In this document: one piece after another, positions 3,811-46,057 of the stretch | How the letters are laid out: each line of letters starts with the position of its first letter | Position numbering within the stretch: the first letter of the stretch is position 1 | Assembly: GCA_937871165.1 (NCBI GenBank) | Contig: CALMXK010000170.1 | Coordinates: 1 to 47,851 of the forward strand | From: an uncultured Actinomycetes bacterium | Lineage (GTDB): Bacteria > Actinomycetota > Thermoleophilia > Miltoncostaeales > Miltoncostaeaceae | Length of the DNA: 47,851 nt | Reading direction: 5' to 3' | The notes under the pieces: generated by a model | The model's input: the letters and a program-made list of their open reading frames with translations, nothing else | Databases searched by the model: none | Told to the model about the DNA's origin: nothing | Position numbers and translations under genes: made by a program

Positions 3811-3849
3811 AGTTAACCGTTTTGGTGTCTGACACCAGAACGGTTAACT
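3811..3849. repeat. REP-like palindrome, family 1, copy 1
   Basis: A 39-bp palindrome with 19-bp arms around a single T. The left arm reads AGTTAACCGTTTTGGTGTC and the right arm GACACCAGAACGGTTAACT, with one T/G position. It ends one base before the stop codon (3851-3853) of the beta-helix gene, in a convergent gap. Other copies: 13927-13967, 36845-36887, 45095-45137 and 45987-46029; the last two flank a RAYT gene. Confidence 0.95.
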
Positions 3850-13926: not shown

Positions 13927-13967
13927 TACTTAACCATTCTGGTGCCTGGCACCAGAATGGTTAAGTA
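13927..13967. repeat. REP-like palindrome, family 1, copy 2 (covariant form)
   Basis: A perfect 41-bp palindrome: 20-bp arms around one T. Relative to the other copies the arms carry ACTTAACCATT for AGTTAACCGTT and GGTGCC for GGTGTC, and the opposite arm carries the matching changes, so pairing is preserved. It sits five bases from the stop of the ABC permease and just before the VanZ gene. Confidence 0.95.
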
Positions 13968-19409: not shown

Positions 19410-19446
19410 CGGGGTCCTGTCGTCGGGAGAGCTTGTCGCGCGGCCC

Positions 19447-19500
19447 TCGGTATGAAAACGGTATGAATTGTGTATGTGGTGCCCGGCACCAGAGGGACAA
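19447..19500. repeat. 54-bp dispersed repeat, family 2, copy B
   Basis: Exact reverse complement of 1538-1591, with the palindrome GGTGCCCGGCACC at 19478-19490 and two CGGTATGAA-type units at 19448-19467. It occupies most of the gap between the biotin carboxylase stop (19508) and the thioesterase start (19409). Confidence 0.9.
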
Positions 19501-19507
19501 AATGCGA

Positions 19508-21274
19508 TTACGCCTCGTCGGCGACAACCTTCGCCAACGCCTGTCCCGGCGTGACCGAATCGCCTTCGGCCACCAGCAGCTCCTTCACCACGCCGGCCTG
19601 ATGGGCCGTGATCTCGTTCTCCATCTTCATGGCTTCCACGATCACCAGCACGTCACCGACAGCCACCGTCTGACCCACCGCCACCGGCACCTTGAACACC
19701 GTGCCCTGCATCGGAGTCACCACGGTGTCGCCGCTTGCGACGCCACCCGCGGAGCCGGCACGCTTCTCGCGCTTCTTCTTGGCCGGTGCGGCGGCACCAA
19801 GGGTGGACGGGTCGAGGAACAACTTGACGTCGAACCGCTTGCCGTTCACCTCGGCCGTCACCGCACGCTCTACCAGCTCCACCGCATCGACACCCTCAGT
19901 CGCGGCGGGGGCAGGGGCGTCGCCGAGCGGGGTCGGTGACTCGCTCATGGCCTCGAGCGCGTCGTGGCACGCGCCACCGTCGATGAACTCCTGCTGCTCA
20001 AGCAGCCAGATGTGGAACGGGATCAGCGTGGTGGTGCCCTCGAACGTGAACTCCCGCAGCGCACGCAACATGCGCTTGCGCGCCGACTCGCGATCCACGT
20101 CCCAGACGATCAGCTTCGCCACCATCGGGTCGTAGATGTCGGCGATCACCGACCCCGCCGCCACGCCAGAGTCCACCCGCACGCCGGGGCCTGACGGCTC
20201 GCGGTAGGCGGTCACGGGGCCGGGTGTCGGCAGGAACTTGTGGGAGGCGTCCTCGGCGTTGATGCGGCACTCGAACGCATGGCCACGCGCGGCGACTTGG
20301 TCCTGGGCCACGGACATCGCCTCGCCAGCGGCGATGCGGATCTGCTCGCGGATCAGGTCGATGCCGGTCACCATCTCCGTGACCGTGTGCTCCACCTGGA
20401 TGCGCGTGTTCATCTCCAGGAAGAAGAAGTCCTCGCCCGAGACGAGGTACTCGCACGTGCCGGCCGAGCGGTAACCGACCGCCACGGCTGCGCGCACCGA
20501 CGCCTCACCCATGCGTCGGCGAAGGTCGTCCGACACGACCGGGCTCGGGGTCTCCTCGACCAGCTTCTGATGGCGCCGCTGCACCGAGCAGTCGCGCTCA
20601 CCCAAATGGATGGCGTTGCCGTGCGCGTCGGCCAGGATCTGGATCTCGACGTGGCGCGGGTGGGGCAGATACCGCTCCAGGTACACCACCGAGTCGGCGA
20701 AAAACTTCTCGGCCTCGCGGCGCGCCCCCTCGAACGCGTCCTCGAGCTCCGCCTCGGTGAGTGCCACGCGAAAGCCCTTGCCGCCACCACCGGCGGCGGC
20801 CTTGACCGCAACCGGGAAGCCGATGGCGTCGGCGATCGCGCGCGCATCGTCGATGGTGTCGACCGCCTCGCGAACACCGGGCACGATCGGCACGCCCGCG
20901 TCATGCATCAGCGCACGCGCGCCGATCTTGGATCCCATCGCGTCGATGGCCTCCGGCGGCGGACCGATGAAGACGATGCCGGCGTCGGCACATGCACGTG
21001 CAAACGGCGCGTTCTCCGCAAGGAACCCGTAGCCGGGATGGATCGCGTCCGCACCGGCGCGCTGGGCGGTCTCGATGATCGTGTCGATCTTGAGGTAGCT
21101 CTGGGTCGCCGGTCCGGGACCGATCAGATAGGCCTCGTCGGCGTGGCCGACAAACAACGCGTCGCGGTCGGTCTCGCTGTAGACGGCGACCGAGGCGATC
21201 CCCATCTCGCGCAGGGTGCGAAACACACGGATTGCGATCTCGCCACGGTTGGCGACAAGCACCTTCGAAAACAC
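19508..21274 (-). CDS. Acyl-CoA carboxylase alpha subunit (biotin carboxylase-BCCP)
   Basis: This 588-residue subunit carboxylates its own biotin using ATP and bicarbonate. Biotin carboxylase (about 1-450): FSKVLVANRGEIAIRVFRT, HPGYGFLAEN, AAAGGGGKGFRVA, ERDCSVQRRHQKLVEETPSP, FFFLEMNTRIQVEHTVTE. A linker rich in Ala, Lys and Arg precedes the biotinyl domain (about 515-588) with the biotin-lysine motif VEAMKMENEI. The GTG at 21274 is preferred as start: GGAGG lies five bases before it, while the ATG at 21289 lacks a ribosome site. Grouped with a carboxyltransferase, an epsilon subunit and a methylmalonyl-CoA mutase, it most likely works on propionyl-CoA. Confidence 0.93.
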   Translation of the reverse strand: MFSKVLVANRGEIAIRVFRTLREMGIASVAVYSETDRDALFVGHADEAYLIGPGPATQSYLKIDTIIETAQRAGADAIHPGYGFLAENAPFARACADAGIVFIGPPPEAIDAMGSKIGARALMHDAGVPIVPGVREAVDTIDDARAIADAIGFPVAVKAAAGGGGKGFRVALTEAELEDAFEGARREAEKFFADSVVYLERYLPHPRHVEIQILADAHGNAIHLGERDCSVQRRHQKLVEETPSPVVSDDLRRRMGEASVRAAVAVGYRSAGTCEYLVSGEDFFFLEMNTRIQVEHTVTEMVTGIDLIREQIRIAAGEAMSVAQDQVAARGHAFECRINAEDASHKFLPTPGPVTAYREPSGPGVRVDSGVAAGSVIADIYDPMVAKLIVWDVDRESARKRMLRALREFTFEGTTTLIPFHIWLLEQQEFIDGGACHDALEAMSESPTPLGDAPAPAATEGVDAVELVERAVTAEVNGKRFDVKLFLDPSTLGAAAPAKKKREKRAGSAGGVASGDTVVTPMQGTVFKVPVAVGQTVAVGDVLVIVEAMKMENEITAHQAGVVKELLVAEGDSVTPGQALAKVVADEA

Positions 21275-31713: not shown

Positions 31714-32988
31714 ATGAGCGGGCGGCGACCGCCACCGCGGGGCGCTGGCCGAGCTCGCCAAACGCGCGCCCCAACGTCGCCGCGGTCGTCGAGTCGCTCC
31801 ACCGGCAGGCCTCCGCCACGGTCCACTGCGCGGCGCAGGCGGCCAAGTCGAGCGCGGGTTCGGCTGCGAAGGCTCGGCGCAGCGGCGTTCATCGCCGTCG
31901 TCGCGATGCTCACCGCGAGCCTGCTCACGCGTGGGGGCTCGGTCGGTGAGGCGACCACGGCGACCGTCACAGCGCCACTTGGGGTCACGCCCCCGCCGGC
32001 CAAGGGCACCCCAATCGCGCTCACGCGTGAGATCGAGGTCGCCGCGGTTGGCGATCTGGTGATGGGGGCTTCCCCGTACGGGCTGCCGAGCGACGGTGGA
32101 GCGTCGCTGTTTTCGTCGGTCAAGTCGCTCCTGGTCGGTGACGTCGTGATGGCGAACCTGGAGGGCACCCTCTCGACCGGTGGCGCGTCAAAGTGCGGTG
32201 ACACCCCGTCGACCAACTGTTACGCGTTCCAGACCCCGCCCGGGTACGTGCGGTGGCTGCGCGAGGGCGGCATCACGCTCGTCAACTTGGCCAACAACCA
32301 CTCGGCCGACTTCGGCGAGGCTGCACGTCAGCAAACGCACACGGTGCTGCACGACGCCGGGATCGCCGCGGCGGGCCAGCCGGAAGGAACGATCACCTAC
32401 ATGCAACGGGCCGGTGGCACGGTGGCGGCCATCGGTTTCGGGTTCAACCAGCAGATGAACTCGCTCCTTGATCTGGATCGGGCCCGCGCGATCGTGGAGG
32501 AGGCTGCCCGGCACGCCGGAGTCGTCATCGTGACGATGCACGTCGGCGCCGAGGGCAGCTCCGCGCAGCACCTGACCTTCCAGACGGAGATGTTCCTGGG
32601 TGAGAACCGGGGCAACCCCGTGCAGTTCGCCCGCGCCATGGTGGATGCCGGCGCTGACCTGGTCGTCGGTCACGGTCCGCACGTGATGCGTGCGATGGAG
32701 GTGCGGAAGGGACGGCTGATCGCGTACAGCCTCGGCAACTTCATGGGATACGCCACGTTCAACCTGAGCGGGCCGAGCGGCCAGAGCGGTGTGCTTCGCG
32801 TGCGACTTGCCACGGACGGTCGTCTGCTTGGCGGCAAGCTCACGTCGCTGGGGCTGTACGGCAAGGGCGTGCCGGCTCCGGGCGGGCAGTCGGTCGCCAC
32901 TGTGCGTGCGCTGACGGCCGCTGACCTCGATGTGAGCGGTGTGACGATGACTGCCGACGGCACAATCGCGGAAGCGGCAGCGCAGTAG
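31714..32988 (+). CDS. CapA-family exported metallophosphatase-fold protein, copy 1
   Basis: This 424-residue protein has a long Arg/Pro-rich cytoplasmic N-terminus (about 1-65), one membrane anchor (LGAAAFIAVVAMLTASLL) and an extracellular CapA/PGA-synthesis domain. The domain shows AAVGDLVMGASPYGLPSDGG, DVVMANLEGTL, LVNLANNHSADFG, IGFGFN, VIVTMHVGAEG, ADLVVGHGPHVMRAMEV and LIAYSLGNFMGY, which supply the Asp, Asn and His metal ligands of the calcineurin-like fold. CapA proteins act in poly-gamma-glutamate capsule making or release. No capB/capC synthase genes are near, so another role is possible. It is followed directly by a related gene. The start is uncertain among several in-frame codons. 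Confidence 0.82.
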   Translation: MSGRRPPPRGAGRARQTRAPTSPRSSSRSTGRPPPRSTARRRRPSRARVRLRRLGAAAFIAVVAMLTASLLTRGGSVGEATTATVTAPLGVTPPPAKGTPIALTREIEVAAVGDLVMGASPYGLPSDGGASLFSSVKSLLVGDVVMANLEGTLSTGGASKCGDTPSTNCYAFQTPPGYVRWLREGGITLVNLANNHSADFGEAARQQTHTVLHDAGIAAAGQPEGTITYMQRAGGTVAAIGFGFNQQMNSLLDLDRARAIVEEAARHAGVVIVTMHVGAEGSSAQHLTFQTEMFLGENRGNPVQFARAMVDAGADLVVGHGPHVMRAMEVRKGRLIAYSLGNFMGYATFNLSGPSGQSGVLRVRLATDGRLLGGKLTSLGLYGKGVPAPGGQSVATVRALTAADLDVSGVTMTADGTIAEAAAQ

Positions 32989-33020
32989 GCCGTTCCGTGG
33001 CGCAGTGTTCGTCTGCAAGT

Positions 33021-34136
33021 ATGGCGCGCATGGTTTGCGTGACCACACGCGGGCGCCGTTGCACATCCGCGATCGTCATTGCGATGATCGTGGCGGCTGT
33101 GGCACCGGCGCGCGTGGTGGCGAGCACGACAGTGACGCCACCGCCACCTGCAGGCACGCCGATCCAGTTGACGCGCGATCTAACCGTCACGGCGGTGGGC
33201 GACCTGGTGATGGGCAGTCGACCGTATGGTCTTCCCAGCGACGGTGGACGATCGCTGTTCACGCGGGTCAAGCCGCTCCTTGTCGGCGACATCGTGATGG
33301 CGAACTTGGAAGGCACGCTCGCAAGCAGCGGTCGATCCAAGTGCGGGCCGTCGTCCGGACCGTACTGCTTCGCCTTCCGTACCCCGTCGAGCTACGCCCA
33401 GTGGCTGCCCAAGGCTGGCATCGACGTGGTGAACGTCGCAAACAACCACATCGACGATTTCGGCCTGATCGGTCGTCGCCAGACGCGTGCCAACCTCAAC
33501 CGCGTCGGGGTGCGCCATACCGGCTGGCCGGGGTCGATCGCCTACATGCAAACAGCCGGCGGCACGGTGGCGGTCATCGGCTTCGGATTCGAGCGCAAGA
33601 ACCAGAACACGATCTTGAATCTGCCGGCGGCTCGGGCGCTTGTTGCCGAGGCTGCTGCGCACGCCGGGGTCGTGATCGTCACCATGCATAGCGGCGCCGA
33701 GGGGCGAACCGCACAGCACCTGACTTTTCGCCGTGAGATCTTCCTGGGCGAAAACCGCGGCAACCCGACGGCCTTCGCACGCGCGATGGTCGACGCGGGT
33801 GCGGACCTGGTGGTCGGGCATGGCCCCCACGTGATGCGCGCGATGGAGCTCTACAAGGGACGACTGATCGCCTACAGCATGGGCAACTTCATGGGCTACG
33901 CGGTGTTCAACATCAGCGGTGTGAGCGGCCAAAGCGGCGTCTTGTCGGTCACCCTGGCGCCGGACGGGCACCTGGTCGGCGGAAAGTTGCGCCCGATCAG
34001 GCTCGTGGGACGCGGTGTGCCGGTGCCGGGCGGAACCTCGGTCGCGAAGGTGCGGGCACTCACTGCGCAGGACCTCGGTGGGCGTGGCGCGCGCATCGCG
34101 GCCGACGGCTCCATCGCAGGTGCGCCGACTCCCTAG
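33021..34136 (+). CDS. CapA-family exported metallophosphatase-fold protein, copy 2
   Basis: This 371-residue paralogue of the preceding protein has a signal peptide (SAIVIAMIVAAVAPARVVAS) instead of a membrane anchor with a long basic tail. All domain motifs are kept: VTAVGDLVMGSRPYGLPSDG, DIVMANLEGTL, VNVANNHIDDFG, IGFGFERKN, VIVTMHSGAEG, LVVGHGPHVMRAMEL and LIAYSMGNFMGYAVF. The two differ mainly in their N-termini and in the loop after the Asn motif, so this looks like a tandem duplication with separation into anchored and secreted forms. It lies 32 bases after copy 1 on the same strand, probably one operon. Confidence 0.82.
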   Translation: MARMVCVTTRGRRCTSAIVIAMIVAAVAPARVVASTTVTPPPPAGTPIQLTRDLTVTAVGDLVMGSRPYGLPSDGGRSLFTRVKPLLVGDIVMANLEGTLASSGRSKCGPSSGPYCFAFRTPSSYAQWLPKAGIDVVNVANNHIDDFGLIGRRQTRANLNRVGVRHTGWPGSIAYMQTAGGTVAVIGFGFERKNQNTILNLPAARALVAEAAAHAGVVIVTMHSGAEGRTAQHLTFRREIFLGENRGNPTAFARAMVDAGADLVVGHGPHVMRAMELYKGRLIAYSMGNFMGYAVFNISGVSGQSGVLSVTLAPDGHLVGGKLRPIRLVGRGVPVPGGTSVAKVRALTAQDLGGRGARIAADGSIAGAPTP

Positions 34137-36672: not shown

Positions 36673-36762
36673 GTCCCGGCACCCAGGCGTGCGGTGTCCG
36701 GCGATGGAAGTCGCTCCCCGGTGGTTTCGTCCACCTCATGACGCCAGTCGCGACACGGGGAT
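36673..36762 (-). promoter_or_regulatory. ZTP (pfl) riboswitch in the glyA leader
   Basis: Reading the reverse strand, the leader contains GTCGCGACTGGCG, then GGTGGACGAAACCACCGGGG followed by AGCGAC, and further on CCGCACGCCTGGGTGCCGG. These are the conserved pieces of the pfl/ZTP motif: P1 with (G)ACUGGCG, the GGUGGA...CCACCGGGGAGCGAC stem, and the CCGCCUGGG pseudoknot loop, in the right order. Position, about 30 bases before the glyA ribosome site, fits known use of this riboswitch to turn on one-carbon genes when ZMP/ZTP accumulates. Confidence 0.9.
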
Positions 36763-36844: not shown

Positions 36845-36887
36845 GCAGTTAACCGTTCTGGTGTCTGACACCAAAACGGTTAACTGC
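36845..36887. repeat. REP-like palindrome, family 1, copy 3
   Basis: 43 bp with 21-bp arms: GCAGTTAACCGTTCTGGTGTC, T, and a right arm ending AAACGGTTAACTGC; one C/A mismatch. It lies 17 bases past the macro-domain gene's stop and upstream of the glyA riboswitch. Its reverse complement differs from copy 1 only at the centre and flank. Confidence 0.95.
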
Positions 36888-44606: not shown

Positions 44607-45098
44607 ATGCAGCTTGCAGAGATCAATGTGGCGACGCTTCGCGCGCCATTGGATGATCCGATGATCGCCGACTTTGCGGCGGGGATCGCGCCGCTCAACC
44701 AGTTGGCTGAGGCTGCGCCGGGGTTTGTCTGGCGCCTTGTCGATGAGCCGGGTCGTGTCGACACCGTGGTGGTGGGCGCGTCGCCGTTTGATCCCCGCAT
44801 CATCGTCAACATGTCGGTGTGGGAGTCGTTGGAGGCGCTTCGGGCGTTCACCTACAGCGGGGTGCATCTGGACTTCATCAAGCGGCGCCGGGACTGGTTC
44901 TCACGGATGGATGTGTTTCTTGCGATGTGGTGGGTGGCGGATGGTGAGCGGCCGACGCTGGCGCAAGGGCAGGCGCGTCTGCGGTTGCTTGAGCGCAACG
45001 GTTCGACGGCTCGGGCGTTCACGTTCTCAAGCACGTTCGATGCGGACGGTTCGCCGTCCGTGCCGCGGCAGTGGCCTCCGCACAAGCCTCGGAAGTAG
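44607..45098 (+). CDS. DUF3291-type protein
   Basis: This 163-residue protein reads MQLAEINVATLRAPLDDPM, FAAGIAPLNQLAEAAPGFVWRL, IIVNMSVWESLEALRAFTYSGVHLDFIKRRRDWFSRM and MWWVADGERPTLAQGQARLRLL. This is a dimeric alpha-beta-barrel-like pattern known as DUF3291, related to heme-binding/monooxygenase folds. No ligand residues are assured. ATG 44607 is chosen because family similarity begins there; the frame opens earlier, at 44559. The last three bases (45096-45098, TAG) lie inside a REP-like palindrome shared with the convergent RAYT gene. Confidence 0.8.
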   Translation: MQLAEINVATLRAPLDDPMIADFAAGIAPLNQLAEAAPGFVWRLVDEPGRVDTVVVGASPFDPRIIVNMSVWESLEALRAFTYSGVHLDFIKRRRDWFSRMDVFLAMWWVADGERPTLAQGQARLRLLERNGSTARAFTFSSTFDADGSPSVPRQWPPHKPRK

Positions 45099-45137
45099 TT
45101 AACCGTTCTGGTGTCAGACACCGAAACGGTTAACTAC
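45095..45137. repeat. REP-like palindrome, family 1, copy 4
   Basis: 43 bp with 21-bp arms around one A: GTAGTTAACCGTTCTGGTGTC and the opposite arm GACACCGAAACGG plus TTAACTAC, with two mismatches. It contains the stop codons of both convergent genes: TAG of DUF3291 (45096-45098) and the reverse-strand TAG of the RAYT gene (45134-45136). The outer bases read GTAG at each end, as in classical REPs. Confidence 0.95.
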
Positions 45138-45886
45138 CGTCGTCGCTGATCGCGGGCGTATCCGTTGCGTTTCCATGCCCGGATGGCTCCAACCGATGCT
45201 CCCGTGAGTCGCGAGGCTTCGGCGACCGTCATGCCCCCTTCTTCGATGAGGATCGCGCACGCTTTGCGCGGTTCCATGACTTGAGCGATGGCCGACGGCG
45301 GGGAGTGCCCGGCTCGTGGCTGGAACTCGTGGGGGTGTGGCTCGGGCAGTTCCACCAGCTGGCGCAAGAGCGTTCGGGCATGCAGGGGGCGCCTGTGAAA
45401 GAGCTCGAGAAGATGTTGGACATCGATCGGCACTGGTCCGCTCGTGCCGAGAAGCACGCTCGTGTAGCTGGACCACTCCCATTCTTCGGGATGCTCGACC
45501 AGGCCCGCGCGCACGGGATTGCGGGCCACGTATCGAATGACGGCGAGAAGTTGCTCATCCGAAGTGACTGTCACCGAGTGGTACCTCGACCGAAAGAGGT
45601 GATCAGGCTGGCTGTACTTCCAGTTGAAGAAGCGTGCGTACTGGCCAAAGAGATCACGCAACCCGTCACTCAGATTCGGTTCCGGGGTCGTAAAGCACAG
45701 GTGGACGTGGTTGCCCATCAGACACCAAGCCCAACCGATCCAGGATCGGGTCTGGACGACGTCGCGAAGAAGGGCACAGAACTTCCGGCGATCCTGATGG
45801 TCGAGAAATATCGGGACCCTTCGGTTGCCCCGCATCGTGACGTGGTACGTCAGATCTGCGCCAATCAGGCGCGGCGCTCTGCCCAT
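45134..45886 (-). CDS. REP-associated tyrosine transposase (RAYT)
   Basis: This 250-residue protein belongs to the Y1/IS200-like transposase superfamily and would nick and join single-stranded REP hairpins. It has MGRAPRLIGADLTYHVTMRGNRR at the start, the HUH metal motif MGNHVHL (His60, Val61, His62), and a candidate catalytic Tyr (Tyr83) in FGQYARFFNWKYS. LFRSRYHS and the RAYT hallmark YVARNPVRAGLVEHPEEWEWSSY follow. Residues about 205-245 (GMTVAEASRLTGASVGAIRAW) form an HTH that could aid DNA binding. The ATG at 45886 is preferred (GGAG at 45896-45893, spacing six). REP-like palindromes lie on both sides and its stop is inside one of them. Confidence 0.93.
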   Translation of the reverse strand: MGRAPRLIGADLTYHVTMRGNRRVPIFLDHQDRRKFCALLRDVVQTRSWIGWAWCLMGNHVHLCFTTPEPNLSDGLRDLFGQYARFFNWKYSQPDHLFRSRYHSVTVTSDEQLLAVIRYVARNPVRAGLVEHPEEWEWSSYTSVLLGTSGPVPIDVQHLLELFHRRPLHARTLLRQLVELPEPHPHEFQPRAGHSPPSAIAQVMEPRKACAILIEEGGMTVAEASRLTGASVGAIRAWKRNGYARDQRRR

Positions 45887-45986
45887 TGCTGTCTCCATGT
45901 TCGAAAAACCGTTCATGGATATAAGGGCTGGGGAGACAGTTTCGACCCCCCTTTGCGGGCAGCAATTTCGCGCTTTGCGGCGGCCG

Positions 45987-46029
45987 CTAGTTAACCGTTC
46001 TGGTGTCTGACACCAGAACGGTTAACTAG
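45987..46029. repeat. REP-like palindrome, family 1, copy 5
   Basis: Perfect 43-bp palindrome with 21-bp arms, CTAGTTAACCGTTCTGGTGTC on the left, around a single T. It lies about 100 bases upstream of the RAYT start and 28 bases past the stop of the ABC permease gene. It is the most regular copy and may be the newest. Confidence 0.95.
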
Positions 46030-46057
46030 ACTCCCTGCAAACGCCAGGAAAAACGGC

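Follow-up and report, generated by a model that had tools for sequence, protein, structure and literature searches.

A Y1 transposase gene flanked by dispersed palindromes in an uncultured actinobacterium: a probable TIRtron-type system

The window discussed here is the whole 47,851-nucleotide stretch that was analyzed, a contig of a freshwater-type actinobacterium. RAYT1, a Y1/HUH tyrosine transposase of 250 aa counted from a conserved MGR start, was located at 45134–45886 on the minus strand. The ORF list gave a longer frame (45134–45916, minus strand); as the alignment showed M[GAP]R at the N-terminus of RAYT1 homologues, the start is probably at 45886, which is Met11 of the long ORF. The gene was flanked by two unstranded copies of a 39-bp palindrome, AGTTAACCGTTCTGGTGTC-W-GACACCAGAACGGTTAACT, hereafter palindrome A. 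The left copy (45097–45135) lies downstream of RAYT1, and the right copy (45989–46027), a perfect 19-1-19 palindrome, lies upstream. An inverted repeat of 41 bp surrounded RAYT1. Dispersed copies occurred at 3811–3849, 36847–36885, and 13928–13966, the last being a variant with TTAACCATTCTGGTGCC arms and compensated changes. A search of the window with the arm TTAACCGTTCTGGTGTC gave 10 matches at up to three mismatches, which correspond to these five palindromes; dinucleotide shuffles expect 0.04. The earlier note on this DNA had described a Y1-type gene between two palindromes of the same family and three further copies, and both observations were borne out.

All five window copies formed near-perfect hairpins as single strands, with z values of −6.5 to −10.2, and a search of Rfam found no family at the palindromes. 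One foot of the left-flank palindrome is the TAG stop of a DUF3291 gene (45096–45098), and its other foot is the TAG stop of RAYT1 (45136–45134). A ZTP/ZMP riboswitch (RF01750, 52 bits) was observed at 36674–36761 on the minus strand, about 85 bp from the palindrome A copy at 36847–36885.

With residues numbered from the MGR start, RAYT1 showed the HUH motif as NHVH at 59–62 and the Y motif as YVARNP, in which Tyr119 is the predicted catalytic tyrosine. The HVH motif of the earlier note was thus found, and the Tyr83 that it named is a different residue. Searches matched RAYT1 to Pfam Y1_Tnp (2.3e-10) and to PDB 4er8 (E=2.6e-6). Its AlphaFold model had a mean pLDDT of 84, and the top Foldseek match of this model was again 4er8, the E. 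coli TnpA_REP–hairpin complex (E=6e-8), followed by IS200/IS605 enzymes. The C-terminal third is helical (helices 199–249 in the model), and sub-threshold Pfam matches to HTH_29 and HTH_23 at residues 217–250 suggest that the C-terminus may be helix-turn-helix-like. At the position of the FQ motif RAYT1 has FR.

The genome (G000) is a metagenome-assembled genome of 2.64 Mb, fragmented into 205 contigs, 94% complete, and the one genome of its species in the analysis. The enrichment of the palindrome on which the earlier note had made its reading depend was clear: genome-wide, 128 arms (63 and 65) were found at up to two mismatches, and the reversed-pattern control gave 0. These arms form about 65 copies, mostly single, and 74 GGTGYC-W-GRCACC cores were counted, this core being near-invariant. 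When the 65 copies were read, stem positions were paired in 48–65 of 65 and positions just outside the stem in 22–25 of 65; as pairing falls directly outside the stem, the palindrome ends are sharp. The TTAACCATTCTGGTGCC variant forms a subfamily whose differences are paired. On the left the flanking base was usually a pyrimidine and on the right usually a purine, with all combinations occurring, so that the palindrome foot reads YAG. At the start of contig C14 (L037), an adapter was fused to a palindrome copy. In another region (L063 2941–4353, contig C135), a VapBC-like toxin–antitoxin pair and a rhodanese-like gene, identified by eye, were bracketed by two imperfect GGTGYC palindrome pairs, 46 bp apart within a pair and in inverted orientation.

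A polar tail, AGA-N3-CCTGCAAATC-N5-6-AAW, followed 21 of 63 copies at the same distance, and conservation stopped about 44 bp from the palindrome centre. The right-flank palindrome carries such a tail, AGA-N3-CCTGCAAA..., at 46028–46052 on the plus strand, pointing away from RAYT1. The motif CCTGCAAA occurred 22 times in 325 kb of stretches picked around palindromes, and 16 of these were found 29–31 bp away from the centre of a palindrome, always on one side of it; elsewhere in these stretches the motif was nearly absent. Given these positions, the possibility that CCTGCAAA is an ordinary intergenic motif beside which palindromes land was not supported.

RAYT1 is a single-copy gene, and G000 contains only two Y1 genes, which are divergent and about 44% identical over the aligned part. 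The second, RAYT2 on contig C34, gave no HTH match in Pfam. It was likewise surrounded by a 41-bp inverted repeat, and its bracketing sequence, TTTGTCCCTCTGGTGCCGGGCACCTCMTACACAATTCATAC, differs from palindrome A. This repeat is itself dispersed in the genome, for example as 68-bp copies; in the window, this 68-bp terminal inverted repeat of RAYT2 stands alone at 1530–1597 on the plus strand and again, inverted, at 19441–19508 on the minus strand. Two enzymes are therefore paired with two repeat families in G000.

For comparison, 42 genomes were used, namely G000 and 41 others of the same family and of mixed completeness, the order adding none. Equal numbers of the palindrome in RAYT-free relatives, which the earlier note had named as evidence against its reading, were not found: palindrome A gave 135 arms in G000, whereas none of the 41 others rose above the control level, with 0–4 arms each. 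The sister species of the same genus, G005, had 0. It lacks the RAYT1 lineage: its RAYTs cluster with RAYT2 (support 100/99), and RAYT1 stands alone on the tree. G005 carries instead CGTGTCATNNNYGGTGCCWGGCACCRNNNATGACACG palindromes, mostly as dimers 99–101 bp apart (stretches L205–L219), with a spacer that is unconserved except for CCTGCAAAT in its middle; the CCTGCAAATC tail motif also sits between these dimers. As G005 has CGTGTCATNNNYGGTGCCWGGCACCRNNNATGACACG with CCTGCAAAT, the palindromes differ between the sisters while a small motif stayed. In the G005 stems, 40 double-changed cells were counted compared with 15.3 in shuffles (0/500), and this excess of compensatory changes indicates that hairpin pairing was kept. 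With the strikingly constant spacing of its dimers and with CCTGCAAAT, the G005 arrangement resembles a constrained element that is either structured or bound.

RAYTs were found in two of the twelve genera of the family, and GGKGHC-W-GDCMCC cores were abundant only in these two. Counts of this wide core were 23–140 (median 56) in the 13 genomes with a RAYT and 0–68 (median 5) in the 29 without, so the relation between copy number and RAYT presence that the earlier note had proposed to count was obtained, with p=8e-7 across the family and p=0.002 inside genus g12, both values ignoring phylogeny. The 20 genomes of the ten other genera, all without RAYT, had 0–9 cores. In five genomes of g12 (G022, G025, G026, G029, G032) no RAYT was detected, yet they had 30–68 cores, which indicates that the repeats can survive or be maintained where no RAYT is detected; loss of the RAYT, or a miss in incomplete assemblies, may account for these five. 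Co-variation of palindrome and RAYT held in part. The class of core beside the RAYT was the abundant class in seven genomes with palindrome-flanked RAYTs (G000, G005, G024, G027, G033, G035, G040), but in G034 and G038 the flank class is not the abundant one, and G037 is mixed. Because A arms are confined to G000, RAYT2 has its own repeat, and cores track RAYTs, palindrome and RAYT belong together on the evidence of the sequences. Since its gene is flanked by a palindrome present about 65 times in G000 and in none of the 41 relatives, RAYT1 very probably spread the copies of palindrome A. Dispersed tandem 17-bp arrays (up to seven units, each a 13-bp palindrome with 4 further bp) were observed in G024, G033, and G035, where they also flank the RAYT.

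Gene calls for G000 were made in this analysis by codon usage and gave 82% coding. Sixty-four of the 65 copies lay outside called genes. Their neighbour genes were convergent in 23 cases, tandem in 28, and divergent in only 5, a gene 3′ end was within 100 bp for 49 of the 65, and nine copies had a stop codon at or inside the palindrome. New details are that the palindromes adjoin the 3′ ends of genes and that stop codons can come from them. One G000 gene ends with the TAG of the palindrome and its G005 orthologue continues to another stop, as an insertion would do. An empty-site comparison of G000 with G005 had few orthologous intergenic regions, of which one case was informative and the others uninformative. 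This placement, the strong hairpins, and the stem compensation in G005 would also be expected if the palindromes were bidirectional terminators or 3′-end mRNA stabilisers under selection, with RAYT1 merely lying between two of them. We regard this explanation as improbable, since the stems lack a following T-run and neither RAYT1 flank was reported as terminator-like, related species end their genes without palindrome A (0 copies in G005), and RAYT2 also lies between copies of a dispersed repeat of its own. That a given gene would by chance have copies in the gaps on both of its sides has a probability of about 6e-4. A RAYT origin of the palindromes does not conflict with their use as terminators.

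The reading of the earlier note amounts to a GTAG-REP/RAYT system of the classical kind, known from Escherichia coli and Pseudomonas. The REP-associated tyrosine transposase model of NCBIfam scored 79.2 bits for the RAYT1 ORF, near its cut-off of 80, and 80.9 bits for RAYT1 in the genome search; the best structural neighbour is 4er8, and the intergenic palindromes are dispersed and also flank the RAYT gene. Known REP enzymes cut the single-stranded hairpin at CT, and the AG of the guide is proposed to choose the site (PMC8266576); in some group-3 systems the AG bases are the most important two of the guide (PMC8266576). Palindrome A has AG at about 85% of its 5′ feet and CT at most 3′ feet. 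The REP hallmark, however, is a conserved 5′ GT[AG]G tetranucleotide at the hairpin foot, and GTAG was present at 19 of the approximately 127 palindrome ends scored, which share only YAG (or YAC). The stem is also symmetrical, double-footed, and without a bulge, the protein has a C-terminal extension with weak HTH matches, and its sequence relatives belong to a TIR-flanked branch. Membership of the classical REP class was therefore largely refuted, and we consider this explanation very unlikely. The claim of a complete RAYT/REP system in the enterobacterial and pseudomonad sense was not upheld, and a new palindromic TIR family describes the repeats better than the proposed new REP class. The suggestion that the palindromes are RAYT targets kept its support from their amplification in G000 and their lineage-specific presence, which matches RAYT1, and lost the REP-type membership.

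Least likely of all, in our estimate, is that the 39-bp dyad serves as a dispersed operator, to which a regulator, a nucleoid protein, or the putative RAYT1 HTH binds in duplex form without any relation to transposition: the near-perfect dyad symmetry, the near-invariant core, and the possibly HTH-like tail would suit it, but the copies lie behind genes and not in divergent promoter regions, and the palindrome sequence is confined to one species, whereas the neighbouring genes are not.

A TIRYT-type classification was adopted because GTAG is not conserved, the C-terminus may be HTH-like, and the homologues are TIR-flanked. In the TIRYT/TIRtron group, Y1 transposases are flanked by long inverted repeats instead of GTAG REPs (Di Nocera, De Gregorio and Rocco 2013, PMC3733652), and most of the group was assigned by Quentin et al. 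2018 to TnpA_Y1 subclass 2.1 (PMC6006769). This subclass (Bertels group 1) has about 250 aa, NHVH or NH[YF]H, Y---NP, an HTH tail, and W[EQ] or FQ; no REPs were found for it and no repeats beside its genes, and only subclass 1.1 was reported from Actinobacteridae (PMC6006769). The 80 named homologues compared here came mostly from Bacillota, and also from Coriobacteriia, several proteobacteria, and others. Inverted repeats flanked 52 of 79 homologue genes; in 37 cases they belonged to the GGGACGG type and in 10 to a GGKGWCAG type. The actinobacterial RAYT set formed one side of a weakly supported branch (81/21). FQ was replaced by FG, FR, or FA in 19 of 19 family members and was present in 72 of the 79 other homologues; the Y motif of the family is YVA[LR]NP and similar, in place of Y[IV]H-NP. 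C-terminal tails were shorter in the other RAYT genus of the family. IS200/IS605 elements (subclass 1.1) are marked by multiple near-identical transposase copies, YxxxQ, and tnpB; on the first two of these marks membership does not apply, as G000 has two divergent Y1 genes and Y---NP.

The best explanation, which we consider probable, is a TIRtron: a single-copy TIR-associated Y1/HUH transposase with palindromic ends and about 65 dispersed solo ends. As in known TIRtrons, the flanking inverted repeats of a single-copy Y1 transposase form a moderately abundant dispersed family, the closest case being the self-complementary TIR family of Stenotrophomonas maltophilia ORF 1152 (PMC3733652). The TIRtron motif GGGGWSAS resembles the core GGKGHCAG of the present family; GGTGTCAG of palindrome A is off by one base, and GGGGTCAG of G024/G035 fits. 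Unlike those systems, the present one is actinobacterial, with perfect 39-bp palindromes, a GGTGTC core, species specificity, and a CCTGCAAATC tail on a third of the copies. It shares NHVH, Y---NP, a length of ~250 aa, and the lack of GTAG REPs with subclass 2.1, and its C-terminal extension may be HTH-like as in that subclass, but it has F[GRA] in place of FQ, repeats that adjoin the genes, and an actinobacterial host (PMC6006769). With the REPtrons of E. coli and Stenotrophomonas (TnpA_REP, 4er8; PMC8266576), it has in common the HUH/Y1 fold, predicted hairpin targets, intergenic dispersal, and a single-copy enzyme; it differs in having no fixed GTAG, an extra C-terminal domain, and a double-footed, bulge-free stem. 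Like REPINs (Bertels and Rainey 2011, PMC3116915), the G005 palindromes form dimers, with a distance of about 100 bp, but their spacer is unconserved except for CCTGCAAAT, and the G000 copies are mostly single. We filed the system as a TIRYT-type (TIRtron, subclass-2.1-like) variant with altered motifs, F[GRA] for FQ, and not as a GTAG-REP RAYT. The likeness of the palindrome A arm to TIRs of other phyla was marginal, and one striking match to the Clostridia-type TIR was seen (L121 GGGACGGTTCTGATGTC). Direct descent of the arm from GGGGACGGTTCT..TGTC is not claimed, because scores as high against 52 TIRs were reached by 9 of 300 shuffles and by 8 of 300 genomic 19-mers.

In such a TIRtron, the palindrome would become single-stranded on the lagging-strand template or in a supercoil-extruded hairpin, to which RAYT1 would bind. 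Tyr119 may then nick at the foot, where 5′ AG would pair with 3′ CT, by analogy with the guide/CT pairing described for REPs. Once freed, the palindrome could be joined into single-stranded DNA elsewhere, either bare or together with its CCTGCAAATC tail. Copies would be tolerated mostly just behind genes, the foot sometimes becoming a stop codon, and the ends would multiply while the enzyme gene remains single copy.

Some constraint from function, in addition to selfish spread, is suggested by the tail and by the conserved distance within the G005 dimers. We tentatively extend the TIRtron explanation to a broader reading, possible but the less expected outcome, in which a distinct TnpA_Y1 lineage (F[GRA], YVA-NP) made separate palindrome families by genus or species around a shared core. 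A second recognition or functional site, CCTGCAAAT at fixed spacing, would have outlasted the turnover of palindromes between sister species, and the mobile unit would be more than a REP, combining palindrome and site in one element with a host or enzyme function.

TIR-associated Y1 transposases are a large, barely studied half of the RAYTs, for which our literature search found no assigned function and no proven targets. The present family provides a test set of 19 related enzymes, several palindrome classes, and genomes that either have or lack the enzyme. Earlier reports of the superfamily from this phylum, as far as Actinobacteridae are concerned, were limited to ordinary IS200 enzymes. 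It permits asking whether target and enzyme co-evolve and what role a domesticated transposase has in the cell.

Two further observations concern the window. Nextera adapter and index read-through (CTGTCTCTTATACACATCTGACGCTGCCGACGA...AGATCTCGGTGGTCGCCGTATCAT) was present at the contig end (47783–47851), and the ORFs MCIRDS... and ...SSAASDVYKRQ in this part are artefactual. At 31984–33904, two tandem paralogous stretches with 73–86% identity were observed, 1145–1148 bp apart.
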